Origin: Bacillota bacterium
Lineage (GTDB): Bacteria; Bacillota; Sulfobacillia; Sulfobacillales; Sulfobacillaceae
Assembly (NCBI GenBank): GCA_021784595.1
Contig: JAJYHT010000061.1
Location: 1 to 64,000 of the forward strand
Length of the DNA: 64,000 nucleotides
Reading direction: 5' to 3'
The notes beneath the pieces were generated by a model. The model was not told the DNA's origin. It ran no database searches and saw only the letters and a program-made list of their open reading frames with translations. The position numbers and the translations under genes were made by a program. This document shows, piece by piece, positions 9,070 to 51,889 of the stretch (the first letter of the stretch is position 1; each line of letters starts with the position of its first letter).

Positions 9070-10704
9070 TTAAAATACCGGACGCTCGCGCCATCCACCG
9101 AACACGTCTTTCATTGATTGTACAATTTCCCCTTCGGTTGCGCCAGCCCGCACCGCTTCAATAATTTCCGGCATGATGGCGGCGTTGGGATCTTGGCATG
9201 CCAACCGTAAGCTATTGAGTCGCGCCTGAACTCGGGCAAGGTCTCGCGATTGCTTAAACTTTCGCAATCGGGCAACCTGCTGCGGCTCGACTTGGGGGTC
9301 GATCTTCAACAAGGGTATGCGGTCAGTCTCTGCTTCCACAAAAGCATTGACTCCGACCATGATTTGTTCGTGATTTTCCAGTTCTTTTTGGTACCGATAC
9401 GACGCTTCCGCAATCTCACGCTGAAAAAACCCGTTTTCAATGCCTTCCAGAACCCCTCCCATTTCGTCAATGCGTTGGAAATAGGCTTCCGCTTCCTCTT
9501 CTAAACGTGTTGTCATCGCCTCTACAAAGTACGAGCCGGCCAATGGGTCAACGGTATTGGCCACGCCCGTTTCATAGGCGATAATTTGTTGTGTTCTGAG
9601 CGCAATCTTTACCGATTTTTCGGTCGGCAACGACAACACTTCGTCCATAGAATTGGTATGCAGAGATTGAGTGCCGCCCAGAACTCCCGCCAACGCTTCG
9701 AACGCCGTTCGCACGATGTTGTTTTCCGGTTGTTGTGCGGTTAAGGAGCAGCCCGCAGTTTGGGTGTGAAACCGCATCATCCACGATCGTGGATTTTTGG
9801 CACCATACTTTTCTTTCAAATGACGGGCCCATATTCGGCGAGCTGCCCGAAACTTAGCAATCTCTTCAAAGAAATCTATATGCGAGTTAAAGAAAAAGGA
9901 TAATCGGGGCGCAAATGCATCCACATCCAGCCCCGCTTTAATGCCAGCCTGCACATACGCAAAGCCATCAGCTAAGGTAAACGCCAATTCCTGCGCAGCG
10001 GTAGCTCCTGCCTCTCGAATGTGATATCCACTGATGCTGATGGAGTTCCATTGCGGCACTTGATGCGTTGCAAAGGTCATCATATCAGTGATGACCCGCA
10101 TGGAGGGGCGGGGCGGAAAGACCCATTCTTTTTGCGCAATGTATTCCTTGAGGATATCGGCCTGCAACGTGCCCCGAATTTTATCCCACGAGACGCCTTG
10201 ACGTTCGGCGGCCACCAAATACATAGCCCATACTATGGGAGCAGGTCCGTTAATGGTCATTGAAGTCGACACTTGGTCCAAAGGAATTTCCGCAAACAAC
10301 TGCTCCATATCCTCAATGGTATCGATCGCCACGCCTTCGCGTCCCACTTCTCCCAAACTGTGGGAATCATCCGAATCAAATCCCATAAGCGTGGGCATGT
10401 CAAAAGCCACCGACAGTCCGGTCTGTCCTTGCTCCAACAAATATTGAAACCGTTGATTGGTCTGTTCGGCAGTGCCAAAGCCGGCAAACTGCCGCATAGT
10501 CCAAAGACGTCCCCGAAACATGTTGGGATGGATTCCACGGGTAAATGGATATTGGCCTGGCTCTCCAATGATGGCATCGCCTACGTCTTCCACTCCATAG
10601 ACCTCGCGCACCGGAATGCCAGACAATGTACGAAATTCCCGATTCCCTTGATATGGATCGGTGTTTCCCTGTATCGGGACGTCCACTTTTCCCTCCGTTG
10701 CCAT
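9070..10704 (-). CDS. B12-dependent acyl-CoA mutase, large subunit (methylmalonyl/isobutyryl-CoA mutase family)
   Basis: A 544-residue TIM-barrel subunit without the C-terminal cobalamin-binding domain (DxHxxG is absent), so it needs a separate small subunit that is not in this window. Substrate-site residues do not match classical methylmalonyl-CoA mutase: the TIRQYAGF motif reads TMRQFAGF (Tyr to Phe) and the next loop reads [13 protein letters not shown] with SLGEVG, as I recall for isobutyryl-CoA mutase. It lacks the Asp of 2-hydroxyisobutyryl-CoA mutase (VAFD rather than TDFD). Isobutyryl-CoA or a related branched substrate is therefore a serious alternative to methylmalonyl-CoA. A cobalamin adenosyltransferase gene is encoded 15 kb away and leucine dehydrogenase close by. 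Confidence 0.85.
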
Positions 10705-12580: not shown

Positions 12581-13426
12581 TTATAGCCGACGACTATCAA
12601 CTTTCCCATGCTCGCCTTTCCCTAATGGAGAACGCCCTGTGTTTGCCGATGCGACCTCGCTTCCGGCCCAAAATGCCGCACTGTCACCCATCCCAGGCAC
12701 GGGAGAAATATAGCCGCCATCGCGCTGCGGCGGCAAGACCTTTGGCCATGCGGGATCAGTTTGTGCAACGGTCGCGGGACGCAAGACTCCTACTGGCGTT
12801 TGTTGTGCTCCTTGGCCCATGGGATTGTCTCGCAAGAGTTCTTCCACCAGTTCTCGAGAAATGCCCTTAGACCAAGCCAACACCTCGCTGCCGACATCGT
12901 TTACATCGACCACGGCTGCCCCTGCACCCAGTTTTTTACTCAGACTGTCGACTAGTGACTGCGCTTTAGCAGGCGCCAACACAATATATTGGTTGAAAGG
13001 GGGGATGGTGGTAGGCCCTGGTCCATCAATAGCCGCCACCTGACGACCCGCCACTCGGTAAAAGTCCCCCGAACGCCCTAATATCCGATCGATAGCACCC
13101 ACTGTAGCCGCCAACAAAATACGTCCCAATCCCACTTCGCGGATAGCCATTTCCATTGTTTCTGCGCGGCGCAGGCCCATGCCGTAACCCAACTGACGGA
13201 CATGGCGCGAGAGAACTCGGGCAATAGGCCTAGGTTTGATACTTTTTAATAAAATAGCGCGTCCTTCCGCTATCGCAACAATTTTTTCCCCAAGTACCAC
13301 AATGTCGCCCGCTGCTACCCGACCTTCCAAGTAGGGCAAGAGGGTGTGATCCAATCGTTCACCCGCACGCACTAAATGCGTGCGCAACACATAGCGTTGA
13401 TATCGTTGAGCCCCAATTTCCCGCAT
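12581..13426 (-). CDS. coenzyme F420-0:L-glutamate ligase-like protein
   Basis: About 281 residues resembling CofE-type gamma-glutamyl ligases found in many Firmicutes: the segments THLVRAGERL, GDIVVLGEKIVAIAEG, GPGPTTIPPFNQYIVLAPA and DVNDVGSEVLAWS follow that family. CofE adds glutamate to F420-0, but stand-alone homologues exist in species without F420, and no other F420 genes are in the window, so the real substrate is open. The start is uncertain: ATG 13426 is closest to the conserved region; GTG 13453 and an ATG at 13672 are in frame upstream. The C-terminal 70 residues are low-complexity and unconserved-looking. Confidence 0.65.
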   Translation of the reverse strand: MREIGAQRYQRYVLRTHLVRAGERLDHTLLPYLEGRVAAGDIVVLGEKIVAIAEGRAILLKSIKPRPIARVLSRHVRQLGYGMGLRRAETMEMAIREVGLGRILLAATVGAIDRILGRSGDFYRVAGRQVAAIDGPGPTTIPPFNQYIVLAPAKAQSLVDSLSKKLGAGAAVVDVNDVGSEVLAWSKGISRELVEELLRDNPMGQGAQQTPVGVLRPATVAQTDPAWPKVLPPQRDGGYISPVPGMGDSAAFWAGSEVASANTGRSPLGKGEHGKVDSRRL

Positions 13427-13689
13427 TGGTTTCTCAATCCATGTTCCCACACCGTTCTGTGTCGAACCAATTTCCGGGTTAGATGGCTTTCCTATCAAAA
13501 GGCGGCACCCCTTTAAAGTCGATTTTTTGACCCCGTTACTGCGTTGCTCCCGGTAGTACTGTACGGTATGCTGAGCCCCTGCTCGTGCTACCTGAAGTTT
13601 AGCGGAACCTCTTGGCACGATTGGGTAATCTCGGAAAGAAAACTGGACCCTGGGTTTTTTAAATTGAACCACCCCACGCCGTCATTGGA

Positions 13690-14682: not shown

Positions 14683-15501
14683 ATGGAATCTCCCATGGTG
14701 ACTGCGACCATTAATCCCCAACAATTGCTGAAAGATCAGGTAACCATCATTACGGGCGGCAACGGCGGATTGGGTCGCGCTATGGCCTTTAAATTTGCTG
14801 AAGCCGGCGCTCATCTAGTCCTGGCCGCCACCAACCGCCATACATTAGAACAAGCTCGCCAAGATCTTGAGCTTTCAGGCACAACATCGCTGGCGATTTC
14901 GTGTGATGTCAGCTCACCTATGGATATACAACGGTTAGTGGACATGACCATGGAACAATTTGGGAGAATAGACATTCTCGTCAATAACGCCGGGATTTCT
15001 GGCCCTACCAAGGCGGTTACGGAAATCAGCCTTGCAGAATGGAACCATACCATGGATGTCAACTTGACCGGAGCCTTTCTTGCCTCCCAAGCCGTATTGC
15101 CCTCAATGATTTCACAGGGCAAAGGTCATATCATCAACATTTCGTCAATCTTTGGCAAAAGAGGATATCCCTATCGCAGTGCCTATGCGGCAAGCAAATG
15201 GGCACTCATTGGGTTTACTCAAACACTGGCTTTAGAAGTCGGTAAACACAATGTCCGTGTCAACGCCATCTGCCCGGGCCCTTTAAAAGGGGATCGCATC
15301 GAACGTGTGTGGCAGGAGCGAGCCCGCGTGCGCAACATCCCATGGCAGGCTATTGAGGAAAAAATGGTGCGCATGGCTGCATTGCGACGTATTCCCGAAT
15401 TAGAGGAAGCCGCCAATGTGGCATTGTTTTTAGCCTCTGCCCAATCCTCCGCCATGACTGGACAGGCGCTCAATGTGTCGGCAGGAACGGAAATGCGATA
15501 G
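14683..15501 (+). CDS. short-chain dehydrogenase/reductase
   Basis: A 272-residue classical SDR with all key residues: cofactor motif TGGNGGLG, NNAG, catalytic Ser in NISSIFG and YAASK. Absence of a basic residue right after the glycine loop and the later ATNRH segment leaves NADH or NADPH open. ATG 14683 is preceded by AGGAGG at 7 bases. It is first in a three-gene operon, 14 bases before the iron-type alcohol dehydrogenase. Context suggests oxidation or reduction of a short hydroxy acid or aldehyde feeding the fusion enzyme, for example 3-hydroxypropionate/malonate semialdehyde (inference). Confidence 0.82.
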   Translation: MESPMVTATINPQQLLKDQVTIITGGNGGLGRAMAFKFAEAGAHLVLAATNRHTLEQARQDLELSGTTSLAISCDVSSPMDIQRLVDMTMEQFGRIDILVNNAGISGPTKAVTEISLAEWNHTMDVNLTGAFLASQAVLPSMISQGKGHIINISSIFGKRGYPYRSAYAASKWALIGFTQTLALEVGKHNVRVNAICPGPLKGDRIERVWQERARVRNIPWQAIEEKMVRMAALRRIPELEEAANVALFLASAQSSAMTGQALNVSAGTEMR

Positions 15502-15515
15502 CAAGGAGGACTGCA

Positions 15516-16661
15516 ATGGCAATCACAACCCGCACACTGGGCTACCCTCTACGTGTAATGCATGCGCATGGACACTTGTCCGAGGCCCTTTTAGACTTGG
15601 CTGTTGAGATGGGACCCCGCCCCCTTATTCTCTATGGGCAGTCCCAGTCTGAAGTTGCAGCCCATATCCATACCTTATTCGACAACGCCAAGCTGCTTGC
15701 CTATCCCGGAGGAGAACCCGATTTAGCTACTCTTTTGGAGTTGGCAAGCTATCCAGCGAATCCCACCGCTATCCTTGCGATCGGCGGCGGATCAGTCCTA
15801 GACAGCGCAAAACTGCTAGGTGTCTTGTGGCCCCTGCGCGGCCAAGGAATTGGGTTGAAAGAAGTCTTGGCAAGTCCGGCTCTTATCACCGCGGCACTTC
15901 CCGTCATCGCGGTCCCCACTACAGCCGGGACGGGTTCAGAAGTGACGCCGTATTTGACAATTACCATTTCTCACGACACCACCAACGCAGAAAAACGCCT
16001 CTTAACCAGTCGATATTTGGTTCCACAAATTGCTGTGCTTGATGCGACATTAACCCTAAACCTGCCCCAGGACGTGACACGAAACACCGGCATAGACGCT
16101 TTTACCCATGCATTGGAGGCTTTTTTGTCCACCAAGTCCAGCCCCTGGTCGGACCCTTGGTCGGTGGCCGCTATGTCCCAACTATGGCAAATGTTGCCCG
16201 TAGTCCTCCGCGAACCCTCCAATATCGCTGCCCGCCAAACTGTAATGGAAGCGGCGACCATGGCTGGATTTGCCTTTGCCCATGCCTCCGTCGCTTTGGT
16301 ACATGGAATGTCCAGACCTTTAGGCGCTTGGTTTCATTTACCGCATGGGTACGCTAACGCCATTTTGCTCCCGGCTGTAATGCGGTTCAGTCTGCCGCAT
16401 TTAACAGCGGAGCGAGAACAAATGCTTCGCGATGCGTTGCTGTTGGCGCCCGCGGTGTCCTTGGCGGATGCCATTGAACAGTGGCTGAAAGAGATGAAAG
16501 TCGCTCCCTGGCCCGTGCAACATGAGGTGCGCAACCATCTCATGGAAAAGGCTCCCGCAATGGCACGCCAAGCTCTTTCCAGCGGAAGTCCCGCCAATAA
16601 TCCCAAAGTCCCTGACATTGACATGATCGTGCGCCTCTACCAATCATTAGCCCGTGTTTAA
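15516..16661 (+). CDS. iron-containing (group III) alcohol dehydrogenase
   Basis: 381 residues. The metal ligands of the family are all present: Asp194, His198, His263 and His277 (GIDAFTHALEAF, LVHGMSRPLG, HLPHGYAN), as is the NAD-binding GGGSVLD at 90-96 and PTTAGTGSE. Members reduce aldehydes or oxidise alcohols such as 1,3-propanediol, 4-hydroxybutyrate or 3-hydroxypropionate. SD AAGGAGG lies 8 bases before the ATG. It ends 27 bases before the large fusion gene. A role in making or consuming 3-hydroxypropionate is the simplest reading of the context, not shown by the sequence itself. Confidence 0.85.
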   Translation: MAITTRTLGYPLRVMHAHGHLSEALLDLAVEMGPRPLILYGQSQSEVAAHIHTLFDNAKLLAYPGGEPDLATLLELASYPANPTAILAIGGGSVLDSAKLLGVLWPLRGQGIGLKEVLASPALITAALPVIAVPTTAGTGSEVTPYLTITISHDTTNAEKRLLTSRYLVPQIAVLDATLTLNLPQDVTRNTGIDAFTHALEAFLSTKSSPWSDPWSVAAMSQLWQMLPVVLREPSNIAARQTVMEAATMAGFAFAHASVALVHGMSRPLGAWFHLPHGYANAILLPAVMRFSLPHLTAEREQMLRDALLLAPAVSLADAIEQWLKEMKVAPWPVQHEVRNHLMEKAPAMARQALSSGSPANNPKVPDIDMIVRLYQSLARV

Positions 16662-16688
16662 TATCAGTGATTCAAGGAGGCTTCATTG

Positions 16689-19600
16689 ATGGCATCATCA
16701 GAAATTAAGACGACTTCCACACCTCAGTGGTCTTCTTTATCGCACTTCAGTTGGGAAGACCAGTTGGAATATCACGGCAAAGCGGCCCAGCGCCTTCTAG
16801 CCTGGTATAGTCCTGAACACCGCGCTTGGCTGCAATATGACCCGCATAACGCCCAGTGGAAAGGATATCGCGTTGTTGACGCTGCGCCCCTTTCCCTGCT
16901 CCAACCATGGCATGATGCGCCGTGGGAACGCCTTTTCGATGATCATGAGGCCCCGTTCTACCAATGGTTTGTGGGTGGTCTAACCAATGCCGGGTATGTC
17001 GAAGTGGATCTGCCCATGCTAGACAACCACGGTCAAGATGTGGCGTTCCGTTTCGAAGGGGACCGCTGGGACCCCGATAAAAATCAAGGACAGGGCGGGC
17101 CCGTAGATGAGCGCCGCATCAGTCGGCGCGATTTGTTTTGGGAAACCGCACGACGTAGCGTCATTCTTAAAACTTTGGGGTTGCGGACAAACGACCGAAT
17201 TGCTCTGAATTGCCCTAACATTCCCGAGCAAATTTACTACATGGAAGCCGCCAAGCGTCTGGGCATCATTTATACGCCTGTGTTCGGTGGATTTAGTGAT
17301 AAGACGTTGTCGGATCGCATTGAAGATTCCCAAGCCAGTTTAGTCATCACCGCAGACGGTGGATACCGCAACGCGGAATATGTGCCTTATAAAAGCCAGT
17401 ATACCGACCCTGCACTAGACAACTACGTTTCCACAGCTAAAGCTCTGTCCATCCTCCAAATTGAGTTGAAAGATGCACTGGATCCCGACTTGGCAGCCAA
17501 AGCTCACGGCGTGTCGGTAGAGCGTCTGGGGGACGATTTGACGGTTGCTCCGTCCGATGTCATGCAAACCTTGGGGCATCTCATTAACCACTTTAACCTA
17601 TCAGCCGATATCAGTTATCGTCTTCGCAGAAAGGTTCTCGACGGCTTAGCACAAATGCCCGCGCGGGTCACCCATGGGGTGATTGTCATCCGACACACCG
17701 GCCACCAGGACTTTGTCGCCACAGCCCGCGACCATCTAGACCATGATTTGTTATCCGAGGCAGACCGCCTGCTTTTGTCCACGGCGCAGCGTCTCGGACA
17801 TCGCGTGAAGACCATCAGCGATCTCCACACGCTCGGCGATCGTGAATTGGTGCAGATCGTTTGGGCACTGGTGCCTCCTCAACCCGTGGAAGCCAATCAA
17901 CCGCTGTTTATCATCTACACCAGCGGCAGTACTGGCAAACCTAAAGGTATCGTGCACTGCCACGGCTACCTGAGTCAGGTTTTGGACACCATGGACCAGG
18001 TTTTCGACGCTCAGCCATCGGCAGGAGATGTTCTTTACGTGGTGGCCGATCCCGGGTGGATAACGGGTCAAAGCTACATGATAGCAGGGGCCCTAGGGCG
18101 TCGCATTCCCTCGGTAATTACGGAAGGCTCGCCTATTTTCCCACATGCCGGACGGTTTACCAGCATCATTGACCGGCATCAGGTAACTCTCTTTAAAGCT
18201 GGCTCGACCTTTATGAAAAGCATTCTGGCCAATCCAGAAAGTGTGCAATTAATGCGGCGCTATTCCACGAGACATTTGCGCACCGCTACCTTTTGCGCAG
18301 AGCCTGTTTCCCCAGCAGTACAGTCCTTTGCGATTGATAACGTGACACCTCGATACATTAATTCATATTGGGCCACTGAACATGGGGCCATTGTGCTTTC
18401 GGTAGAACCTCGCGCCACCGTGTTGCCAGACACGAAAACTTACCCCTTGCCTTATATTGATGCCTGGGTCGGTCAAGCCGAAGGATCAGATATAGCGCCG
18501 GTGCCGCTCGGCGTGAAAGGCGAGTTGGTGATTGCCAACCCTTTTCCGAGTTTGTTCCGCTATGTGTGGGGAGACGTTCAACACTTTGGAGAACCCGGCT
18601 GGCGGGGCGACCAAGATCGCTACCAACAAACGTATTTTCGTCGTCATGGGGATGGATTTGTGTACATCCAAGGGGACTTCGCCATCGCGCACCTGGACGG
18701 CAGCTTTACGTTACATGGCCGGTCCGACGATGTGATTAATGTCTCTGGTCATCGCATGGGAACGGAAGAGATTGAAGGAGCCCTCTTAAAAGATCGGGTG
18801 CATAACCCAAAGTCACCCGTGGGCAACGCCTTGGTGATCGGTGCCCCTCACCCCGAGAAAGGATTGGTGCCTATTGCCCTGATTGCCACAGCACCTGGGC
18901 GCGTCCTTTTGGAGCGGGACATCGCTCGGCTAAAGGGATTGGTGCGCCAAGAAAAAGGCGCTGTCGCAGTACCCTACGATATTTTGGCGGTGTCAGCCTT
19001 TCCGGAGACGCGCAGTGGAAAATATGTACGCCGTCTGGTAGCGCAGATATTTCATGGCCAACCGATCGGAGACACCTCAACCTTAAAAAATCCCGAGGTA
19101 TTGCCCGACATTATCGGCCTGGCCCAAACTTGGCGCCAACAAGAACAACGGCGTGAACGCCCCAATCCCTCCTTGGCCTTTGATGGCCGCTTTGTGACCA
19201 TCCGCACCACCCCCGATCCCTACCGTCGGGACGCCCGCATCGCAGTCTGTTTGTTGCACAATGCCCCCGTCAATGCCTTATCCGAACGTGTATTGGATGA
19301 AATACTGGTCGCTTTGTCCGAGGTCCAAGCCGCTCCTTATGCCTTAAGTGTGTTGGTGATGGCCAGCGAAATTCCTGGTGTGTTTGTTGCAGGAGCCGAC
19401 ATTAAAGAATTGAAAGATGGATTTGACGATTGGAATGCCCTCCACGTGCTGCCACGTAAGGCACAAGCCGTGGCCAAGGCCTTGGAGGAAATGCCTTGCC
19501 CTACCGTTGCCTGCCTTGATGGAGCAGCTTTAGGGGGTGGCAACGAACTAGCAATGGCTACGGATCTGCGCATCGCCCATCGAGAAGTTGAAATTGGACA

Positions 19601-22016
19601 GCCAGAAATCAACCTTTACATTAACCCAGGATATGGGGCCACACAACGCTTACCCCGTTGGCTCCATGACAGCGCTGGGTCCCATGGCCTAAACAGAGCG
19701 TTGTGGCTCTTGTTGTCAGGACGCACCATGAGTGCAGAAGAAGCTTTTCAATTGGGATACATCGACCGTCTGGTCTCCGGCCAAGCATTATCGGAAGCCT
19801 TGACTTGGTATCGTTCACCGGACGGGAAAAGAGCCATTGAGTCAGCTTTCGCTCATCGGTCCGAACGTTTAGCGGCGTGGCGAAGCCCTGCGCCTTGGCC
19901 CCAAGACTTTGTATTGGACCACCATGTCCAACGCGCCATCGCACATCATAGCCATACCCCGCGGGAAACCGTGGCTGCCGCCATTTTGCATTTAGTGACC
20001 GACGGTTGGGTCCAAGGTCTAGAAGTCGGGTTGGCAAAAGAAGCCAACACCTTTACCCAGTTGGTGCTTAGTCCTGAGAAAGGCCGCGATGGTATCACGC
20101 GATTTCTAGAAAAACGCAGCTTGCCATTACCAACCCGAGATATTTCCCAATCCAATCCCGAAGAGCTGGAATCTATGGGCCTTCTGTTGCCTATTGGCCA
20201 CCCGTTCATCCCCGGCCTCACTCCCATCCCGCTATTTCAATGGGCACAGGGAGTTTCCAAGGATGCTGCCACTGGTCTTGCTCTGCACGGAGATCCCCAA
20301 GTATCGGAGCGCAAAGTCATCGTCAAAGTGCCCACGGTCGGCCCTAACCAAGTTTTGCTTTATATGCTGGCTTCAGAGGTCAATTTCAACGACATCTGGG
20401 CACTGACAGGCGTACCCGTATCACCTTTTGATCTGCATGATAAAGATATTCATATTACGGGCAGTGGCGGCGCTGGAATTGTGGCGGCGATGGGATCCGA
20501 GGTGCAGCGCGAAGGCCGTCTAGCACTGGGAGCATTAGTAACTATCTATTCAGGACAGAATGATGTTCTGCATCCTGATGTGGGACTAGATCCCATGTTT
20601 GCAGGATTTCACATTCAAGGCTATGACACTCCTGATGGCTCTCATGCGCAGTTTCTCTTAGCAGATGCTCCACAAGTGCATCCCAAGCCATCCCATCTGA
20701 CAATAGAAGCGGCCGCAAGCTATACTCTCGCACTAGGCACAGTATTTCGCACCTTGCACAACACACTGGCCATTTTGCCGGGCAAACGACTCTTTGTGGA
20801 AGGCGGGGGTACGGGCACCGGACTCGAAGCCGTTAAAAGCGCTGCAGCCATGGGGGTTCAGGTTACGGCACTGGTCTCGGACGCCATTCGGGGTGAACGG
20901 ACATTGACACATGGCGCGCATGCCACCATCAATCGCCGCGACCCAGAGTTTTCCGAAATTTTCACAGCGGTTCCCCGCGACCCGGCAAAATGGCAAGATT
21001 GGGAGAAGGCCGGAGCGTCTTGGGTCTCTCGCTATCGTCAAGAAAACCATGGCTATGATGCGGACTACATTATATCCCACGCAGGAGAGAAAATGTTTCC
21101 GCGTAGTTTTCAATTATTGGCCGAGGGCGGAACCATTGCCTTTTTTGGAGCCTCGACCGGCTATCACTTCACCTTTTTAGCCAAACCCGGCGCGTCCACT
21201 CCAAAGGCCGTGCTGGAACAGGCCGCCGTCAAACCAGGGATGGGTGCCGTAATTTTCTATGGAGTTGACCCTCGTCAAGTCGATGATGAGATGGGTCTTA
21301 AAGCAATAGAAGCCTTGCGCGCTAGACATTTAGACATTGTCGTGATTACGCACACCGACGACCAAAGCCATTTTGTCCAAGGACTGGGTTGGGGAGATCA
21401 AGTGCGCGGCGTGCTCAGTTTGGAACACTTGAGAAAACAAACTCAGGATCCGTTGGAGTGGCCTGATGGATTTGTCGAGTTGCCTGATCCGAAAGAGGAT
21501 CCCCAGGCCTTTCGTGAGACAATTCGCCATTACAACGATATGGTCGTCAAACCTTTGGGATCTAAACTGTCTCGCTACTTTCGCTCCACCACCAACCCCC
21601 GCGGCTATCCCGACATCATCATTGAACGATTAGGGTATGATAGTCTAGCCCATAGCGTCAGCCTAGTCAGACCCTTTACTGGCCGTGTGCTGTATTTTGA
21701 AGAGATGGCCGGACAGCGACTCAGTTTTTATGCTCCGCAACTGTGGATGCGGCAACGCCAAATTATTATGCCCACCGCATCGATAAAAGGAACCCACCTG
21801 TCCAATGCCTACGAGGTCCAGGAAATGAACCATCTTATCGAATTGGGGCTGCTAGAGATAACCGAACCTGTGGTGGTGCCATTTGATCACTTGGCAAACG
21901 CGCATCAGGCCATGTGGGAAAATCGGCATCAAGGCGCACAGTACGTCGCTAATATTGCCCTCCCGGAATTAGGATTGCGCACTCGCCAAGCTTTGTTTCA
22001 GAGTTGGGGAGTTTAG
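16689..22016 (+). CDS. pcs: propionyl-CoA synthase-like trifunctional fusion
   Basis: One 1775-residue frame with three enzymes in order. Residues 1 to about 815: acyl-CoA synthetase, with TSGSTGKPKG at 411-420, NSYWATEHG, GRSDDVINVSGHRMGTEE and catalytic Lys778 in SGKYVRR. About 830-1110: enoyl-CoA hydratase, with AGADIKEL, GGGNELAMATD (Glu953) and PEINLYINPGYGATQRL (Glu973), so both catalytic glutamates are kept. About 1190-1775: MDR-type enoyl-CoA reductase with GGGTGTGLEAVKSAAAMG near 1372. This order and length match propionyl-CoA synthase of Chloroflexus (about 1820 residues), which turns 3-hydroxypropionate into propionyl-CoA using ATP, CoA and NADPH. Start ATG 16689 (TTG 16686 also possible) follows AAGGAGG. 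A terminator follows. Confidence 0.88.
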   Translation: MASSEIKTTSTPQWSSLSHFSWEDQLEYHGKAAQRLLAWYSPEHRAWLQYDPHNAQWKGYRVVDAAPLSLLQPWHDAPWERLFDDHEAPFYQWFVGGLTNAGYVEVDLPMLDNHGQDVAFRFEGDRWDPDKNQGQGGPVDERRISRRDLFWETARRSVILKTLGLRTNDRIALNCPNIPEQIYYMEAAKRLGIIYTPVFGGFSDKTLSDRIEDSQASLVITADGGYRNAEYVPYKSQYTDPALDNYVSTAKALSILQIELKDALDPDLAAKAHGVSVERLGDDLTVAPSDVMQTLGHLINHFNLSADISYRLRRKVLDGLAQMPARVTHGVIVIRHTGHQDFVATARDHLDHDLLSEADRLLLSTAQRLGHRVKTISDLHTLGDRELVQIVWALVPPQPVEANQPLFIIYTSGSTGKPKGIVHCHGYLSQVLDTMDQVFDAQPSAGDVLYVVADPGWITGQSYMIAGALGRRIPSVITEGSPIFPHAGRFTSIIDRHQVTLFKAGSTFMKSILANPESVQLMRRYSTRHLRTATFCAEPVSPAVQSFAIDNVTPRYINSYWATEHGAIVLSVEPRATVLPDTKTYPLPYIDAWVGQAEGSDIAPVPLGVKGELVIANPFPSLFRYVWGDVQHFGEPGWRGDQDRYQQTYFRRHGDGFVYIQGDFAIAHLDGSFTLHGRSDDVINVSGHRMGTEEIEGALLKDRVHNPKSPVGNALVIGAPHPEKGLVPIALIATAPGRVLLERDIARLKGLVRQEKGAVAVPYDILAVSAFPETRSGKYVRRLVAQIFHGQPIGDTSTLKNPEVLPDIIGLAQTWRQQEQRRERPNPSLAFDGRFVTIRTTPDPYRRDARIAVCLLHNAPVNALSERVLDEILVALSEVQAAPYALSVLVMASEIPGVFVAGADIKELKDGFDDWNALHVLPRKAQAVAKALEEMPCPTVACLDGAALGGGNELAMATDLRIAHREVEIGQPEINLYINPGYGATQRLPRWLHDSAGSHGLNRALWLLLSGRTMSAEEAFQLGYIDRLVSGQALSEALTWYRSPDGKRAIESAFAHRSERLAAWRSPAPWPQDFVLDHHVQRAIAHHSHTPRETVAAAILHLVTDGWVQGLEVGLAKEANTFTQLVLSPEKGRDGITRFLEKRSLPLPTRDISQSNPEELESMGLLLPIGHPFIPGLTPIPLFQWAQGVSKDAATGLALHGDPQVSERKVIVKVPTVGPNQVLLYMLASEVNFNDIWALTGVPVSPFDLHDKDIHITGSGGAGIVAAMGSEVQREGRLALGALVTIYSGQNDVLHPDVGLDPMFAGFHIQGYDTPDGSHAQFLLADAPQVHPKPSHLTIEAAASYTLALGTVFRTLHNTLAILPGKRLFVEGGGTGTGLEAVKSAAAMGVQVTALVSDAIRGERTLTHGAHATINRRDPEFSEIFTAVPRDPAKWQDWEKAGASWVSRYRQENHGYDADYIISHAGEKMFPRSFQLLAEGGTIAFFGASTGYHFTFLAKPGASTPKAVLEQAAVKPGMGAVIFYGVDPRQVDDEMGLKAIEALRARHLDIVVITHTDDQSHFVQGLGWGDQVRGVLSLEHLRKQTQDPLEWPDGFVELPDPKEDPQAFRETIRHYNDMVVKPLGSKLSRYFRSTTNPRGYPDIIIERLGYDSLAHSVSLVRPFTGRVLYFEEMAGQRLSFYAPQLWMRQRQIIMPTASIKGTHLSNAYEVQEMNHLIELGLLEITEPVVVPFDHLANAHQAMWENRHQGAQYVANIALPELGLRTRQALFQSWGV

Positions 22017-22031: not shown

Positions 22032-22069
22032 AAAGAACCCGCCTGCTGTCGAAGCAGAGCGGGTTCTTT
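22032..22069. terminator. bidirectional terminator between pcs and aldolase
   Basis: Long hairpin: AAAGAACCCGC (22032-22042) pairs with GCGGGTTCTTT (22059-22069), and an inner CTGCT/AGCAG extends the stem around a five-base loop. A or T runs on both sides fit use by the two convergent genes. Confidence 0.85.
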
Positions 22070-22084
22070 GTCCATTGCCCAGAT

Positions 22085-25994: not shown

Positions 25995-26540
25995 CTAAAA
26001 TTTTGCCTCAGCATCGCCAACCCCGTCAAGGTGGTTCACTAGGCGCGCTGCCACAAAAATCAAATCCGACAACCGATTCAGGTACTTGACATGCATAGTC
26101 AAGTTGGGGTCTTCGAGCGCCAACGAGACCACCCGTCGTTCCGCCCTCCGTACGACAGTGCGCGCCACCTGCAAATGAGAGACGGCCGGGGATCCTGAGG
26201 GCAGAATAAAATGGCGCAAGGGTTCTAATTCCTGATCCCATTGGTCAATCACAGTCTCTAAATATGATACGTCATCTTCATTCGTCCGGTTCTCCCGGTC
26301 TGGATTGATATTGGACAAATCTGCTCCTAGTGCAAATAACCGATGTTGAATACGTTCCAAGACTTGATCAATTTGAGGATACTTGTCGGTATAGTTTCTT
26401 GCCAAACCTATCACGGCGTTTGCCTCATCCACCGAACCATATGCTTCAACGCGCACAGAATCCTTGGATACCCGTTTTCCGACAGCACGCCCCCAAAGAC
26501 TGGTTTGTCCCAAATCGCCGGTCCGCGTATATATTTTCAT
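25995..26540 (-). CDS. cob(I)alamin adenosyltransferase, PduO type
   Basis: Makes adenosylcobalamin from cob(I)alamin and ATP. 181 residues. TRTGDLGQTSLWGR is the N-terminal ATP-binding loop; VRRAERRVV and NRLSDLIFVAAR are the conserved C-terminal signatures. The cofactor product is required by mutases such as the one at 9-10.7 kb, so this gene supports that enzyme being functional. Start ATG 26540 (MKIYTRTGD) is preceded by AGGAGG at 7 bases; two codons upstream is another ATG too close to the SD. Confidence 0.92.
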   Translation of the reverse strand: MKIYTRTGDLGQTSLWGRAVGKRVSKDSVRVEAYGSVDEANAVIGLARNYTDKYPQIDQVLERIQHRLFALGADLSNINPDRENRTNEDDVSYLETVIDQWDQELEPLRHFILPSGSPAVSHLQVARTVVRRAERRVVSLALEDPNLTMHVKYLNRLSDLIFVAARLVNHLDGVGDAEAKF

Positions 26541-26801
26541 AGCCATTCCTCCTGCCTTTCCCGTTGCTTCATACCCATGACCCATCAGCCTCGAATCTTT
26601 CCAAGCCCCATAGGTGGAATCGAAGATCGGTTGCAAGCCTAAACCTTACACATCCCTTGACACGCTGGCAATACAGGCCAGCCGTGCGTTCATCAAAATG
26701 CAGAGAGTTGCCCCGGAGATATCTCCTCAAAAGCATAAAAATCACTTTTGGGTAAGGACGCCCAGATATCCAGCGCCTTGGCCCCGCAATCCTGTTATGG
26801 C

Positions 26802-45428: not shown

Positions 45429-46526
45429 TTGCACCCGCGAAAAGATATTTTGCTATTGCCTGGGTATACTCCTGGGCGCTCCATAAACACCGTAAAAGAA
45501 GCCACTGGGCTTTCAAATATTGTCAAGCTCGCCTCCAACGAAAGCTTGTGGGGACCTTCACCCAAAGTTGTCCAGGCCGTCCAAGACCTCGGACAAACCT
45601 TGCTGTATTATCCAGAAGTCAAACCTAGCAATCTTCTAAATCACATAGGTGCGTCTCACGGGCTGGACCCCGCGCTGCTCTTTTTAGGCAATGGGGCCGA
45701 CGAAATCCTGCGATTGGTCGCCTCCTGTTTCGTAGATCCCGACACCGAGGTTATTTATCCGCGCCCCAGTTTTGCCGCCTATGCTCATGCCACGCAAATA
45801 TTTGGAGGTCATGGCGTGGCTGTTCCCCTAACCGCCGACGGAGCCGTAGATTTATCCCAAGTGTTGCGAGCCATCACGGCTAAGACCCGGCTAATCTATC
45901 TTTGCAATCCCAATAACCCGACAGGCGGCGCCTTTAATCAAGATCAGTGGGAGCGCTTTGTGGCCCAAGTGCCGGATAATTTACCCGTGGTAGTCGACGA
46001 GGCCTATCGGGAATATGTCCAAATCCCGGATTATCCCAATGTCGAATCGCTTATTGTCCAAGGCCGGTCCTTTATCATGGTGCGCACGTTCTCCAAAATT
46101 TATGGTCTGGCTGCATTGCGGTTAGGTTGGGCTATGGCCCCGGCCCCCATCATTGACTGGCTTTACCGGGTGCGGGAACCGTTTTCGGTTAACTTGGCAG
46201 CAGAGCGTGCCGGCATGGCTGCCCTCGAGGATTCAGAATGGATAACGCGTGCCCGACATGAGACATGGCAAATGCGCACGATGTTAATCGATGAGTTAGA
46301 ACGTTTGTCCTTTCCTACCTGGCCCAGCCAAGCCAATTTTGTGACCTTTAAGGTCCCCGGTTCCAGTACCTATTGGGCCCAGGCCTTGGAGAGCCGCGGA
46401 TACATTGTCCGAGCCACAGACAGTTTCGGGTTGCCCGGCCACCTTCGTGTCAGCCTGGCTCCTGAGCCCATCATGCGGGGATTTCTTAATGCGCTGCGTG
46501 ACATCAGCCCCCCACAACCCTCGTGA
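45429..46526 (+). CDS. hisC: histidinol-phosphate aminotransferase
   Basis: PLP enzyme, step 7 of histidine synthesis. 365 residues. KLASNESLWGPSPKV, FLGNGADEILRL, CNPNNPTGG, VDEAYREYV and the PLP lysine in RTFSKIYGLAALRLGW are diagnostic. The start is TTG 45429, with SD AAGGAGGAG at 6 bases. It precedes the hisZGDBHAFIE cluster but is separated from it by an 85-base gap that has a consensus promoter. Confidence 0.92.
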   Translation: MHPRKDILLLPGYTPGRSINTVKEATGLSNIVKLASNESLWGPSPKVVQAVQDLGQTLLYYPEVKPSNLLNHIGASHGLDPALLFLGNGADEILRLVASCFVDPDTEVIYPRPSFAAYAHATQIFGGHGVAVPLTADGAVDLSQVLRAITAKTRLIYLCNPNNPTGGAFNQDQWERFVAQVPDNLPVVVDEAYREYVQIPDYPNVESLIVQGRSFIMVRTFSKIYGLAALRLGWAMAPAPIIDWLYRVREPFSVNLAAERAGMAALEDSEWITRARHETWQMRTMLIDELERLSFPTWPSQANFVTFKVPGSSTYWAQALESRGYIVRATDSFGLPGHLRVSLAPEPIMRGFLNALRDISPPQPS

Positions 46527-46532
46527 CAGGTC

Positions 46533-46560
46533 TTGACAGGACAGTTGGCAAAGGTATAAT
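46533..46560 (+). promoter_or_regulatory. consensus promoter of the hisZ operon
   Basis: Perfect TTGACA (46533-46538) and TATAAT (46555-46560) separated by 16 bases, 52 bases before the hisZ start. It allows the hisZ-hisIE block to be expressed separately from hisC. No T-box or leader peptide was seen. Confidence 0.85.
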
Positions 46561-46611
46561 CTAGCACAAGAACTTTAGTACAGTGACGCTTTATTTAGAT
46601 GAGGTGTTCGT

Positions 46612-47409
46612 TTGAATCAATGGCTACGTCAAAATTTGGAGCAATATCAATTACTCGTGCGGCTGCTGACAGGACTGCTGGATCGGGGATTTTATCCCAT
46701 ACCCACCGCACCCACTGGTCAGCAGACATTTCGCGTGGATCACACTCTGGCCATCATCGATTCGTTGAACCGCTTCCCCGATATGGGGCAAGGCGGTCCC
46801 TTGAAAATATTTTCAACGGGACCGGTCTATCAGCCCACATCGTCGCAGTGGACCGAAACACTAGACGTTGAAATCCTAGGTGGTTCGGACTCTGAATCGC
46901 TGGGAATTGTGGACGATTTACTGCGGTGGCTTTGCGATGGAGAAAATCGTCCCCACATGGTGATAGGGGACCTTCAAATCCTAACCCAAACCCTTACACT
47001 CAGCGGGATAACCAAGGAAGACATCGACACCTTCGTGGGATACTTGCGGACCGGCAACCGGGTTGATGCCGAATCCTTGCTAGCTCGCCGAGCTCCTTCC
47101 TACCAACGTCTTTTCCATATTCAATCATGGGATGGTTTGGAAATGAAAGGACCCTTTGCACCTCCCGTCGACCGACAGCGTTGGATGGCTTCATTAAGCA
47201 ACCTCAGCGACGTATCGTGGGATTTGGCCTCAGTCGGCACCTGGCCCTATTATAATGGGCTTGTGTTTAGCTTATATGGTAAAAACATCGGGCAGCCTCT
47301 CATCAGAGGTGGGCAATTTCAACTTACCTTAGGCGAGCGGGTTTGGCGCGGCATTGGCTTCACCGTTTTTGTAGGCCCGTATGAGTTATTTGCACGAGGG
47401 GTGATCTAG
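46612..47409 (+). CDS. hisZ: ATP phosphoribosyltransferase regulatory subunit HisZ
   Basis: Catalytically inactive histidyl-tRNA-synthetase-like partner of the short HisG. 265 residues, shorter than the usual 390, so part of the C-terminal anticodon-like domain appears to be missing. Segments FRVDHTLAII, GPVYQPTSSQWTETLDVEIL and the final GGQFQLTLG...GIGFTVFVGPYEL follow the synthetase-like core. It starts at TTG 46612 (GAGGTG SD) and is 2 bases from hisG. Function supported mostly by position before a short hisG. Confidence 0.8.
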   Translation: MNQWLRQNLEQYQLLVRLLTGLLDRGFYPIPTAPTGQQTFRVDHTLAIIDSLNRFPDMGQGGPLKIFSTGPVYQPTSSQWTETLDVEILGGSDSESLGIVDDLLRWLCDGENRPHMVIGDLQILTQTLTLSGITKEDIDTFVGYLRTGNRVDAESLLARRAPSYQRLFHIQSWDGLEMKGPFAPPVDRQRWMASLSNLSDVSWDLASVGTWPYYNGLVFSLYGKNIGQPLIRGGQFQLTLGERVWRGIGFTVFVGPYELFARGVI

Positions 47410-47411
47410 CC

Positions 47412-48050
47412 ATGTCGACACTGACAATTGCTATTGCCAAAGGGCGGATTTTAGATTCGATGCGCCCTCTATGGGAGGCGGCTATGAACGTGTGGCCAAT
47501 CCCGGACTCCACCCGCCAACTATGGTTTCCGCCCTCAGCCCAAACGCCCGGGGTTCTCATTGCGCGGGCCCGCGATATTCCCACCATGGTCTCGCTTGGA
47601 GTGGCTGATCTCGGTGTTGTAGGCCTCGATGTATTGCGGGAATATCCCCAACCGGACATCTTGGAAGTCGCCGATCTGAAAATCTCGCAATGCCGGATCG
47701 TCATGGCCGGAAGCCATGATAGCTGGCCAGAGGGTCCCGTGCGGATTGCCACCAAATATCCGCGCATTGCCAGGCAATTTCTTGAACAGCATCAAATTTC
47801 CGGGGAATTGGTGGCGCTGTCCGGCAGTTTGGAGTTGGCACCGGTATTGGGACTTGCCCCTTATATCGTAGACATTGTTGATACCGGCCAAACCCTTTCC
47901 GAACACGACCTTCATGAGATACTTACGATTATGGCATCCAGTGCTCGGCTGATTGCCAATCCGGCGCATTGGTACACCAAAGCAGAAGCTCAGGAATTTC
48001 GCGACGTTATGGCTTATCAAAGGGAGGAAGTGGGAAATGTCAAGCGTTAG
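47412..48050 (+). CDS. hisG: ATP phosphoribosyltransferase, short form
   Basis: First and committed step of histidine synthesis. 212 residues with IAIAKGRILDSM at the N-terminus, ADLGVVGLDVL, RIATKYP and the PRPP-loop region PYIVDIVDTGQTL. Short forms lack the C-terminal regulatory domain and need HisZ, which is encoded directly upstream. Its end overlaps hisD by 14 bases. Confidence 0.93.
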   Translation: MSTLTIAIAKGRILDSMRPLWEAAMNVWPIPDSTRQLWFPPSAQTPGVLIARARDIPTMVSLGVADLGVVGLDVLREYPQPDILEVADLKISQCRIVMAGSHDSWPEGPVRIATKYPRIARQFLEQHQISGELVALSGSLELAPVLGLAPYIVDIVDTGQTLSEHDLHEILTIMASSARLIANPAHWYTKAEAQEFRDVMAYQREEVGNVKR

Positions 48051-49239
48051 CCAAATTCTAGACGACATCCAGATCCGGGGATTGGACGCCGCATTGGAAT
48101 ATACGAAACAATTCGACGGAGCGGTAGTCTCTCCCTCCCAAGTCTTATGGGACCCCACGGCTGTTCCTCCTGTCACGTTGCCGCAAGCAGAAATGGAAGC
48201 TTTGGCCTTTGCCGCCACAAATATTCGGCAATTTCATGAAGCGACCCGTCCAAAAGATGTCCTGATTTCGCTTGAACCCGGCATTGAATTGGCAGAACGC
48301 TATGTGCCGTTAAAACGGGTGGGGATTTATGTACCCAATGGGGGATATCCTTTGGTATCCAGTCTTTTAATGCAAGTCATCCCCGCTCAAGTGGCCGGTG
48401 TATCGGATATCGTGGTGGCAATTGCTCCTCGTGGAGGATTGGATCTGGACCCTCGATGGCTTTTTAGCCTACAAATGCTCAACATTTCTCATGTGCTCCG
48501 CATAGGAGGCGCCCAAGCCATTGGCTGCCTAGCCTATGGGTTTAACAATTTTCCTCCGGTCGATCTCATTGCGGGGCCCGGCAACCGCTATGTGACAGAA
48601 GCTAAACAAGAAGCGTTTCGCCGCGGTCTGTGCGGCATTGACGTCATCGCGGGACCTTCTGAAGTTTTAGTGATCGTCAGCGACCCTTTGTTGGCGCCGA
48701 TGGCAGCATACGATTTATTGGCCCAAGCCGAACACGCCAGCGATGCCAAGGGCACTTTAGTCTCTTGGAACCCGGCAGTACATCAAACGGTAGAAAACAT
48801 TCTTGCTATGGAACGGGCTCAAAACACCGCCCCATTAGGGCAGATCGAACTCCGCTGGGTATCAGGCCCCGAACAAGCCGTTGCTTTGGCCAACCGAATG
48901 GCTCCTGAACATTTAGGATTGATGGGTCGAGAAGCCGAGTCGCTGGAATCCGACATCCGCACCGCAGGTGCGCTCTTTGTAGGGCAATATGCCGGACAAG
49001 CTCTAGGCGACTATACCGCAGGACCGAGCCATGTACTGCCAACTGGTGGCAGTGGCCGATTTTTGTCCGGCCTGACCACGCGCACGTTTATGCGTCGCAT
49101 GTCCGTAATCCGAACTCAGGATGAGTTGCCAGATACCTATTTTCACCACACCGAAAAACTGGCCCAAATGGAAGGTCTTCACTATCATGAAAAATCTATG
49201 CGGGTCAGACGACACCGAAAGGAGACCTTAAAGCGGTGA
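48037..49239 (+). CDS. hisD: histidinol dehydrogenase
   Basis: Last two oxidations of histidine synthesis. About 400 residues from ATG 48037 (SD AGGGAGG, 9 bases); the frame is open upstream inside hisG. RVGIYVPNGGYPLVSSLLM, GPGNRYVTEAKQEAF, IAGPSEVLV, LLAQAEHASDAK (zinc and catalytic residues), APEHLGLM and AGPSHVLPTGGSGRF are diagnostic. Confidence 0.95.
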   Translation: MSSVSQILDDIQIRGLDAALEYTKQFDGAVVSPSQVLWDPTAVPPVTLPQAEMEALAFAATNIRQFHEATRPKDVLISLEPGIELAERYVPLKRVGIYVPNGGYPLVSSLLMQVIPAQVAGVSDIVVAIAPRGGLDLDPRWLFSLQMLNISHVLRIGGAQAIGCLAYGFNNFPPVDLIAGPGNRYVTEAKQEAFRRGLCGIDVIAGPSEVLVIVSDPLLAPMAAYDLLAQAEHASDAKGTLVSWNPAVHQTVENILAMERAQNTAPLGQIELRWVSGPEQAVALANRMAPEHLGLMGREAESLESDIRTAGALFVGQYAGQALGDYTAGPSHVLPTGGSGRFLSGLTTRTFMRRMSVIRTQDELPDTYFHHTEKLAQMEGLHYHEKSMRVRRHRKETLKR

Positions 49240-49817
49240 GAGAGTCCACAGTAATCCGACAAACCCGAGAAACCAAAATATCTATCACCTTGCGGCTTGA
49301 TGCACCCGACACAGCCTCAGTCATTGAAACCAATCTTCCCTTATTCACACACTTCCTCACGGCTTTGACCTTCTACAGCGGTCTTTATTGGGACATTCAC
49401 GCGCTCGGTGATGTGGAAGTCGACCCGCATCATTTAGTGGAGGATGTCGGCATTGCCATGGGTCAGGCTTTAGACCAGGCTCTAGGCGACCGAACCGGTA
49501 TTCTTCGATTTGGTCAGCAGTATCTTCCCATGGATGAGGCGCTGGTTCTCTGCGTGCTCGACTTCTCTGGACGCGGTCAGTTATATTGGCAAGGCAGCTT
49601 TCCCGATCGGGCTATTAATGGAGTCAGCAGCGAGATCTGGCCCGAGTTCTTCAACGGTCTAGCACGACATGCCCGCATGACACTGCACCTTCGATACCTG
49701 GAAGGCATTAATGCCCATCATGTGTATGAAGCTGCCTTCAAGGCCTTGGGGCGCGCGCTGTCTCAAGCGGTGACCACTGTCGATAATCGCATGCCTTCCA
49801 CTAAGGGGTCTCTGTAG
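49236..49817 (+). CDS. hisB: imidazoleglycerol-phosphate dehydratase
   Basis: Step 6 of histidine synthesis. 193 residues. The manganese-binding histidines are visible in LFTHFLTAL, HHLVEDVGIAMG, MTLHLRY and NAHHVYEAAFKALGRAL. No histidinol-phosphatase domain is fused. The start GTG 49236 overlaps the hisD stop by four bases (GTGA). Confidence 0.92.
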   Translation: MRESTVIRQTRETKISITLRLDAPDTASVIETNLPLFTHFLTALTFYSGLYWDIHALGDVEVDPHHLVEDVGIAMGQALDQALGDRTGILRFGQQYLPMDEALVLCVLDFSGRGQLYWQGSFPDRAINGVSSEIWPEFFNGLARHARMTLHLRYLEGINAHHVYEAAFKALGRALSQAVTTVDNRMPSTKGSL

Positions 49818-49819
49818 CT

Positions 49820-50431
49820 ATGCTAGAAGTCGCGGTAATAGATTATGGCAATGGCAATTTAGGAAGTTTGTTAGCCGCTCTCGGGCGCTTAGACGTAAAA
49901 GCCCAGGTCTTAACACGTGCTAGTGACGCTGCGCCAGGCGCGGATGCCGTAATCTTCCCGGGTGTAGGTGCACTGGGTACGGTCGTCCAACATTTAGAGA
50001 CCAGTGGATTGCGGGCCCTCATCGAGCGTCATCTAGAGCGGCAGCGACCAATTTTAGGCATTTGCCTCGGCATGCAGTTATTTTTTGAAGAGGGAGCTGA
50101 AGGCGGGTCCGGATTGGGCTGGTTAAAAGGGAGCATTCCGGAATTAAACAGCCAGGTCTTGCCTCACATTGGGTGGAACACAGTCCAACAATTGGCGCCG
50201 CATACCGCCTTAACTGTCAATATCCCCCAAGATCCCGCCTATTATTTTGTTCACAGTTACCGGATTCTGCCGGCCAATCCCCATATTGTGGCCGGCATCA
50301 CAGAATATGAGGGAGAGCCTTTCCCCAGCGTTATTGTGGACCCTCCCCTGTACGGTGTGCAATTCCATCCCGAATTATCGGGCCATCTCGGGCACCGGCT
50401 GCTCGCGCAATGGTTGGAGGAGGTGCGATAA
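49820..50431 (+). CDS. hisH: imidazole glycerol phosphate synthase, glutaminase subunit
   Basis: 203-residue class I glutamine amidotransferase. Catalytic Cys in GICLGMQLFFEEG and His/Glu in VQFHPELSG, with IDYGNGNLGSL at the start. Forms a complex with HisF and feeds it ammonia. Two bases after hisB. Confidence 0.94.
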   Translation: MLEVAVIDYGNGNLGSLLAALGRLDVKAQVLTRASDAAPGADAVIFPGVGALGTVVQHLETSGLRALIERHLERQRPILGICLGMQLFFEEGAEGGSGLGWLKGSIPELNSQVLPHIGWNTVQQLAPHTALTVNIPQDPAYYFVHSYRILPANPHIVAGITEYEGEPFPSVIVDPPLYGVQFHPELSGHLGHRLLAQWLEEVR

Positions 50432-50435
50432 CGAA

Positions 50436-51137
50436 ATGATCGAAGTCTGGCCGGCTTTAGACATCTTTTCAGGACAGGCCGTTCGACTGCGGCAAGGACT
50501 TTACGACCAAATGACCATCTATCATCAGGACCCTCTGCACCTATTGGATGAACTGCCTTGCCCTTTGCCGAGGGTGCACTTGATAGACTTGCAGGGTGCC
50601 CGAAACGGTCAATTCAGCGAGTGGTCCTTGCTAAAAACCTTAAGTGGCCGAGGCCTTCACATCGAAGTCGGGGGAGGTTTCCGCACCTTGGAGGCGATCG
50701 CCTTAGGACTTGACCACGGTGCCCAGAGAATCATTTTAGGCAGTCAAGCGATCACCAATGAACAATTCGCGGCCCAGGCGATTCGTCGTTTTGGCCCCGA
50801 TCACTTAGTCCTAAGTCTTGATATTGCCGGGGAACATACGCGCATTCACGGATGGCAAGAAGACGGACCCAAACCAGATCTACTATGGCAGCAACGCTTT
50901 GCATTAGGATATCGGTTGTTAAACGTCACCGATATTTCCCGGGATGGAACGCTCCAAGGAGTGGATGACGCATTTTGGAGAGAATGGGCCAAAGTGCCCG
51001 GCAACGTGGGCGCAGGGGGCGGAATTTTGTCTTTAGCGGATCTTATACAGCTTGAAGATTTGGGCATTTCGCGCGCTGTAGTGGGCAAAGCGTGGCTTTC
51101 GGGATCTATCAATTTGAAGGATGTGCTAGGATGCTAA
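50436..51137 (+). CDS. hisA: phosphoribosylformimino-5-aminoimidazole carboxamide ribotide isomerase
   Basis: 233-residue (beta/alpha)8 barrel. WPALDIFSGQAVRL near the N-terminus, HLIDLQGA, IEVGGGFRTLE, LVLSLDI (catalytic Asp), TDISRDGTLQGVD and GAGGGI match HisA. Start ATG 50436 follows hisH by four bases. Overlaps hisF by seven bases. Confidence 0.93.
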   Translation: MIEVWPALDIFSGQAVRLRQGLYDQMTIYHQDPLHLLDELPCPLPRVHLIDLQGARNGQFSEWSLLKTLSGRGLHIEVGGGFRTLEAIALGLDHGAQRIILGSQAITNEQFAAQAIRRFGPDHLVLSLDIAGEHTRIHGWQEDGPKPDLLWQQRFALGYRLLNVTDISRDGTLQGVDDAFWREWAKVPGNVGAGGGILSLADLIQLEDLGISRAVVGKAWLSGSINLKDVLGC

Positions 51138-51889
51138 TGCCGCGGATCATACCCTGCTTGGACGTTCGACATGGCCGGGTCGTTAAAGGAGTGCGGTTTG
51201 AAGAACTGGCCGATAGCGGCGATCCCGTCATTTTGGCTAGTCAATATGCGGATCAAGGCGCAGACGAGATTGTCTGGCTGGACATTGCTGCGACTATCGA
51301 AGAGGCGCAATTGAGCTTGAACCTTATCGCCCAAGCGCGGGCTCTGTTGGCTATCCCCTTAACCGTGGGAGGTGGCATACGCTCTTTGGCGCATGTCGAA
51401 CAATTGCTAGCCCACGGCGCCGATAAGGTGTCGATCAATAGTTTTGCTTTGTCTCACCCCGACATCATTGCCGAAATCGCCTATCGCTGGGGGTCGCAGT
51501 GCGTGGTGGTGGCGATTGACGCCCGCCGTGAAGCAGACCACTACCAGGTATACAAAAATGGCGGAAGATTGCGTACCGACTGGGAGTTGGGCGAATGGCT
51601 CCGCACAGCCCAAGATCAAGGAGCTGGAGAATTTTTGCTCACTAGCATGGACCGCGATGGCACACAAGCGGGCTACGACTTAGCGATGTTGCAGTATGCC
51701 CAAAAGCATGTCGCGCGACCCATTATCGCATCGGGTGGCGCGGGCTCTGCCGCCGACGTGCTGCAGGCCCTTAAGGCAGGGCAACATGCTGTATTGTTGG
51801 CTTCGCTCCTCCATCAAGGAAAAACCACCATTGCTGCCCTCAAATCCTATTTAATCCAAGAAGGAGTATCTGTCCGATGGCCCGTCTAG
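51131..51889 (+). CDS. hisF: imidazole glycerol phosphate synthase, cyclase subunit
   Basis: 252-residue barrel. RIIPCLDVRHGRVVKGVRFE (Asp of the N-terminal site), WLDIAAT, TVGGGIRSL, KVSINSFAL, SMDRDGTQAGYD (second catalytic Asp) and ASGGAG are diagnostic. Start ATG 51131; the second ATG at 51137 is another option. Confidence 0.95.
   Translation: MLMPRIIPCLDVRHGRVVKGVRFEELADSGDPVILASQYADQGADEIVWLDIAATIEEAQLSLNLIAQARALLAIPLTVGGGIRSLAHVEQLLAHGADKVSINSFALSHPDIIAEIAYRWGSQCVVVAIDARREADHYQVYKNGGRLRTDWELGEWLRTAQDQGAGEFLLTSMDRDGTQAGYDLAMLQYAQKHVARPIIASGGAGSAADVLQALKAGQHAVLLASLLHQGKTTIAALKSYLIQEGVSVRWPV

Follow-up and report, generated by a model that had tools for sequence, protein, structure and literature searches.

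Organization of the three-gene locus

The DNA analysed in the current work (the window) is a stretch of 64,000 nucleotides, contig JAJYHT010000061.1, from the 3.79 Mb genome (G000) of an acidophilic Sulfobacillus. Within it, positions 14683-22016 of the + strand encode a short-chain dehydrogenase/reductase (SDR), an iron-containing alcohol dehydrogenase (Fe-ADH) and a large fusion protein, interpreted below as a propionyl-coenzyme A (CoA) synthase (Pcs). The features of the locus are as follows:

14683..15501, + strand: SDR dehydrogenase, 272 amino acids, proposed malonate-semialdehyde/3-hydroxypropionate (3HP) oxidoreductase (domain search, motif, tree)
15516..16661, + strand: iron-containing (group III) alcohol dehydrogenase, 381 amino acids (domain search, metal ligands)
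16686..22016, + strand: predicted Pcs fusion, 1775 or 1776 amino acids (domains, 6eqo alignment, motifs, tree)
22036..22070, + strand: hairpin, candidate terminator, between the Pcs gene and a convergent aldolase gene (read from the sequence)

The length of the fusion depends on its start codon, being 1775 amino acids from the ATG at 16689 and 1776 from the TTG at 16686; with the ATG, the gaps of 14 and 27 bases previously described for this gene row are recovered. Given these short gaps, the AAGGAGG Shine-Dalgarno sequence ahead of both the Fe-ADH and the fusion gene, and the hairpin that follows the latter, the three genes look like a single transcript. A consensus terminator scan around 22036..22070 returned terminator-like sites on the - strand only. 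The gene located 3' of the fusion specifies a DeoC/LacD-family aldolase in convergent orientation. Comparison with S. benefaciens yielded pN/pS values (non-synonymous/synonymous) for the three genes of 0.12/0.82, 0.20/0.79 and 0.20/0.78, showing that each evolves under purifying selection in this genus.

The fusion protein is a predicted propionyl-CoA synthase

Pcs converts 3HP with ATP to its CoA ester, and then by way of acrylyl-CoA to propionyl-CoA at the expense of NADPH, all within one protein. An earlier note on this DNA, made from the letters alone, had recognized in the fusion the three domains of this enzyme in their usual order, and both the Pfam order (AMP-binding, enoyl-CoA hydratase, zinc-type dehydrogenase/reductase) and an end-to-end alignment with the Protein Data Bank (PDB) entry 6eqo bear this out. 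The corresponding domains are an acyl-CoA synthetase (residues ~70-812), an enoyl-CoA hydratase (~849-1040) and an enoyl-CoA reductase (~1200-1770). The 6eqo chain, which is deposited under the name acetyl-coenzyme A synthetase and which we take to be the Pcs of Erythrobacter sp. NAP1, is the top PDB match (1747 bits over residues 23-1774), the second match reaching 270 bits; the Pcs encoded in the NAP1 genome (locus L099) is 48% identical to that of the window. The closest characterized homologue of the whole fusion is thus the Erythrobacter enzyme, and not a set of separate enzymes of another pathway.

Alignment of 66 full-length Pcs sequences shows conservation of the adenylation motif, of FPETRSGKY, GGGNE and GQPE, and of the reductase motifs; the catalytic residues singled out previously, Lys778, Glu953 and Glu973 (1775-residue numbering; one higher in the TTG form), were located in FPETRSGKY, GGGNE and GQPEINL, respectively. 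The synthetase domains of all Pcs proteins, including that of the window, form one group relative to 11 acetyl-CoA synthetases used as outgroup (Shimodaira-Hasegawa-like approximate likelihood-ratio test, SH-aLRT, 100), within which the Sulfobacillus proteins constitute a long separate branch whose placement is not firmly resolved. From these sequence comparisons it is highly probable that the fusion is a true Pcs, and catalytic activity is predicted for it.

Distribution of Pcs and of the gene trio

Among five Sulfobacillus genomes, a complete Pcs gene was found in G000 and G004 and a contig-edge piece in G002, while none is visible in the other two, G003 (where it appears to have been lost) and G001 (71% complete). 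The SDR, Fe-ADH and Pcs genes are also grouped in G004, in G002 (where they lie at a contig edge) and, rearranged, in three genomes of a second family (f17). These three are the only non-Sulfobacillus representatives among the six Pcs-bearing genomes of the class (154 searched), and in 6/6 the SDR and Fe-ADH genes adjoin Pcs, in tandem in Sulfobacillus and divergently in f17. Across 398 genomes drawn from the phylum, Pcs was recovered only from the window's own genome and one f17 genome. Identity between the Sulfobacillus and f17 proteins amounts to 57-60% for the SDR, 47-50% for Pcs and 36-39% for the Fe-ADH. The earlier note had not recognized the arrangement as described; no account of it was found in the literature searched, and it recurs across the two families.

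In f17 a LytS/LytTR-type sensor pair follows the SDR and Fe-ADH genes; it consists of a LytS-like GAF sensor kinase and a LytTR-like response regulator (loci L144, 5622-7471, and L140, 7428-9271), a possible sensor of 3HP or of organic acids.

The operon was most likely lost from G003 by natural deletion, since an SDR remnant lies beside the same aldolase gene (L111, 1507-3230; L133), the Fe-ADH and Pcs genes are gone, and a transposase-like gene is present on the other side. This remnant stops at residue 222-225 and has its catalytic Tyr replaced by Cys.

From 166 matches in public genomes to two peptides, the best 80 were taken as a sample of Pcs loci, and fractions derived from it are indicative. 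The view that Pcs is known mainly from the 3HP bi-cycle and from some proteobacteria proved too narrow, as loci were also recovered from Gemmatimonadota, Myxococcota and haloarchaea. A search for Pcs in phages found none.

Absence of the usual malonyl-CoA reductase

In 61 of the 65 informative loci outside Sulfobacillus in this sample, sequence specific to the bifunctional malonyl-CoA reductase (MCR) is located within 5 kb of Pcs; the remaining four belong to two haloarchaea and two proteobacterial contigs. The MCR-specific parts had no match in the five Sulfobacillus and three f17 genomes, and no MCR was thus found elsewhere in these genomes. A search for a paralogue of the ASD-type archaeal malonyl-CoA reductase gave asd- and argC-like genes, as expected, and nothing else. 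For malyl-CoA lyase, the search returned one HpcH/HpaI protein of 279 amino acids in G000 and only a sub-threshold match in G004. Since MCR is missing and G004 shows no convincing malyl-CoA lyase, a full 3HP bi-cycle is not supported; nor would one be needed, since the sulfobacilli are described as Calvin-cycle autotrophs and mixotrophs.

The SDR and its relationship to MCR domains

The SDR possesses the catalytic triad Ser155-Tyr168-Lys172, along with Tyr162 and Arg165 at the positions which in MCR bind malonate semialdehyde. In the Roseiflexus enzyme this substrate is held by Tyr172 and Arg175 of SDR1, the malonyl-CoA step involves Tyr743 and Arg746 of SDR3, and malonyl-CoA is bound by arginines of the extra domain and SDR4 (PMC10470521). 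The corresponding motif, YxxRxxYxxxK, is present in the window SDR, its five Pcs-linked orthologues and 30/30 MCR domains examined; in a first SDR set it occurred in no other SDR from Sulfobacillus or its relatives, 5unl being the exception. With wider sampling, the Pcs-linked SDRs and the MCR domains fall into one SDR subgroup (29 rows, SH-aLRT 99), though not as demonstrated sisters; these trees were built rapidly and rooted at the midpoint, and their branches are long. That the SDR is a split-off MCR domain was rejected, as 5unl is its best single-domain PDB match (167 bits, versus 100-114 bits for each MCR domain) and as the MCR domains make a branch of their own with wider sampling.

An alignment-based structure model of the SDR attained a predicted local distance difference test (pLDDT) score of 85.7, a single-sequence model being poor. 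Comparison of the model by Foldseek and VIA-align gave many near-equal single-domain SDRs (FabG, hydroxybutyrate and xylitol dehydrogenases) and hence no substrate information; MCR was not among the structure matches listed. Taken together, these observations support, rather than prove, a small hydroxy acid or semialdehyde as the substrate, and reduction of malonyl-CoA by this SDR is unlikely because it lacks the parts of MCR that bind malonyl-CoA.

The iron-containing alcohol dehydrogenase

The expected domains were detected in the Fe-ADH, and its four metal ligands, Asp194, His198, His263 and His277, are all kept. No NCBIfam equivalog cut-off was reached, and the nearest relatives are ~34-43% identical. 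In five of the nine nearest plasmid relatives inspected (from three Rhodococcus plasmids, one Acinetobacter plasmid and one plasmid of the haloarchaeon Halorientalis), the gene directly adjoins one for a CoA-acylating methylmalonate-semialdehyde dehydrogenase; in the Vibrio, Tsukamurella, Streptomyces and Pseudomonas relatives it does not. By gene context, the enzyme may be a 3HP or 3-hydroxyisobutyrate dehydrogenase.

Fate of propionyl-CoA

The window's own genome holds, in one cluster, genes for a methylmalonyl-CoA mutase large subunit, an epimerase-like VOC protein and a carboxyltransferase. Two genes of the window that lie outside the operon relate to this step:

9070..10704, - strand: a further methylmalonyl-CoA mutase large subunit, which in G004 is also encoded within a few kilobases 5' of the SDR gene
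25995..26636, - strand: cobalamin adenosyltransferase, for the mutase cofactor (domain search)

As carboxylase, epimerase and mutase genes are present, propionyl-CoA can, by predicted gene content, reach succinyl-CoA.

A parallel in haloarchaea

On a plasmid of Natribaculum luteum (L195, 3121-19442) Pcs occurs without MCR, beside genes for a thiolase, an acyl-CoA carboxylase, methylmalonyl-CoA mutase, an Fe-ADH, a tartronate-semialdehyde/3-hydroxyisobutyrate-type reductase and a SauS-like CoA-acylating aldehyde dehydrogenase. Judged by its gene content, this cluster is an apparent haloarchaeal 3HP module devoid of MCR, and as such a second, independent lineage in which an Fe-ADH and a semialdehyde-type reductase accompany Pcs. 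Its SauS-like enzyme is a candidate malonyl-CoA reductase; no close relative was found in Sulfobacillus or f17, where matches reach only ~27% identity.

Haladaptatus plasmids (L197, 7986-9884) encode a stand-alone zinc-binding dehydrogenase ~47% identical to the reductase part of Pcs; enoyl-CoA hydratases, as separate genes, and an acetate-CoA ligase lie close by, and the set resembles an unfused counterpart of Pcs.

Interpretation and alternative explanations

The operon probably constitutes a 3HP module that operates without MCR, leading from malonate semialdehyde, in exchange with 3HP, to propionyl-CoA and on to succinyl-CoA. In such a module malonate semialdehyde and 3HP would be interconverted by either the SDR or the Fe-ADH, or by the two together, possibly using different nicotinamide cofactors, after which Pcs would activate 3HP with ATP to the CoA ester, dehydrate this to acrylyl-CoA and reduce the latter with NADPH to propionyl-CoA; because all of these steps take place inside one protein, the toxic acrylyl-CoA would not be released. 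Propionyl-CoA carboxylase, methylmalonyl-CoA epimerase and the B12-dependent mutase would then carry the product to succinyl-CoA. A route from 3HP or malonate semialdehyde to propionyl-CoA had been suggested in the earlier note, and of the readings considered it has the best support. Malonate semialdehyde could derive from, for example, beta-alanine, or be formed by some further malonyl-CoA reductase. The substrates of the SDR and Fe-ADH, the direction of flux and the origin of malonate semialdehyde are those parts of the module that we infer.

Several observations weigh against this interpretation. A single step would not need two dehydrogenases; no source for malonate semialdehyde emerged; other single-domain SDRs (5unl and one SDR of the Bacillota) share the Tyr/Arg motif, which is therefore not exclusive to semialdehyde reductases; and the Sulfobacillus and f17 Fe-ADHs, at 36-39% identity, are each closer to other Fe-ADHs than to one another.

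An alternative is that the SDR, or an enzyme encoded elsewhere, fully replaces MCR by reducing malonyl-CoA to malonate semialdehyde, the operon then being the biosynthetic first half of the 3HP cycle. The grouping of the SDR with catalytic domains of MCR, the almost constant coupling of Pcs to MCR in other organisms and the Natribaculum aldehyde dehydrogenase, which could in principle perform this step, all agree with such a role; it is nonetheless unlikely, considering that the extra domain and SDR4, which supply the malonyl-CoA-binding arginines of MCR (PMC10470521), are missing from the SDR, that neither an ASD-type paralogue nor a close relative of the Natribaculum enzyme was found, that G004 has no convincing malyl-CoA lyase, and that sulfobacilli are described as autotrophs employing the Calvin cycle. 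Less likely again is a route from C3 alcohols, in which the Fe-ADH would supply 3HP to Pcs by oxidizing 1,3-propanediol or reducing 3-hydroxypropanal. The Fe-ADH belongs to a versatile family, its PDB homologues including 1,3-propanediol dehydrogenase and lactaldehyde reductase, yet it falls under the NCBIfam equivalog cut-offs, no aldehyde dehydrogenase was seen adjoining the trio in the class, and the genes next to its nearest relatives are those for semialdehyde dehydrogenase and not for diol dehydratase.

The operon might also act as a reductant sink which at low oxygen spends NADPH on propionyl-CoA, to be let out as propionate. S. thermosulfidooxidans, S. sibiricus and S. thermotolerans do release propionate under hypoxia by a pathway that was not found, and the main text of the 2014 comparison of genomes of the genus makes no mention of 3-hydroxypropionate or propionyl-CoA synthase (PMC4378227). 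Provided that these strains carry Pcs, the operon is a candidate for the origin of this release; as a dedicated sink, however, it is the least likely of the explanations considered, since the consumption of ATP by Pcs is costly for a fermentation and since Pcs is not seen in two of the five genus genomes (G003 through loss, G001 being 71% complete).

Returning to the MCR-free module, the data point to a Pcs operon that includes SDR and Fe-ADH genes, and to a form of a known carbon-assimilation route that has not been described before. The wider proposition, that this class of Bacillota runs an MCR-independent pathway from 3HP to propionyl-CoA, with a stand-alone SDR related to the domains that were assembled into MCR, and that this explains otherwise unexplained carbon assimilation or propionate formation in sulfobacilli, is tentative and, as it stands, rather doubtful.

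The occurrence of Pcs is taken to indicate the 3HP bi-cycle. Because an operon of Pcs without MCR has been kept across two families in different layouts, Pcs is better regarded as a separable module, whose presence alone is not a sign of the bi-cycle. For bioleaching bacteria the locus is a concrete candidate for 3HP metabolism and for the hitherto unexplained release of propionate, and its two small Pcs-paired dehydrogenases are possibly useful parts for 3HP engineering.

Other genes of the window

The window also encodes a FlK-type protein with the fluoroacetyl-CoA thioesterase fold (57625-58050, - strand), a weak F420-0:gamma-glutamyl ligase domain (31 bits; 12581-13672, - strand), a two-subunit CoA-transferase gene pair (61345-63101, - strand) and, judged by eye from translations, a compact gene run resembling a histidine biosynthesis operon (45429-52503, + strand).

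Comparison with known systems

The predicted module has in common with the 3HP bi-cycle of Chloroflexus and Roseiflexus that 3HP yields propionyl-CoA, which carboxylase, epimerase and mutase then turn into succinyl-CoA; it differs in that neither MCR nor a convincing malyl-CoA lyase was found in Sulfobacillus. With respect to bifunctional MCR (8hjw, 8hi4), the window SDR has the subgroup, catalytic triad and Tyr/Arg pair of SDR1 and SDR3, but is a single domain of 272 amino acids, with SDR2, the extra domain and SDR4 not found in the genome. The plasmid-borne Fe-ADHs of Rhodococcus, Acinetobacter and Halorientalis are the nearest relatives of the window Fe-ADH, although they are paired with an oxidative semialdehyde dehydrogenase and that of the window with Pcs. 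The Pcs of Erythrobacter sp. NAP1 (6eqo) corresponds to the window protein in full-length homology, identical domain order and active-site motifs, whereas the gene neighbourhood is different: in Erythrobacter MCR is encoded directly 3' of Pcs, and in Sulfobacillus the SDR and Fe-ADH genes are located 5' of it.

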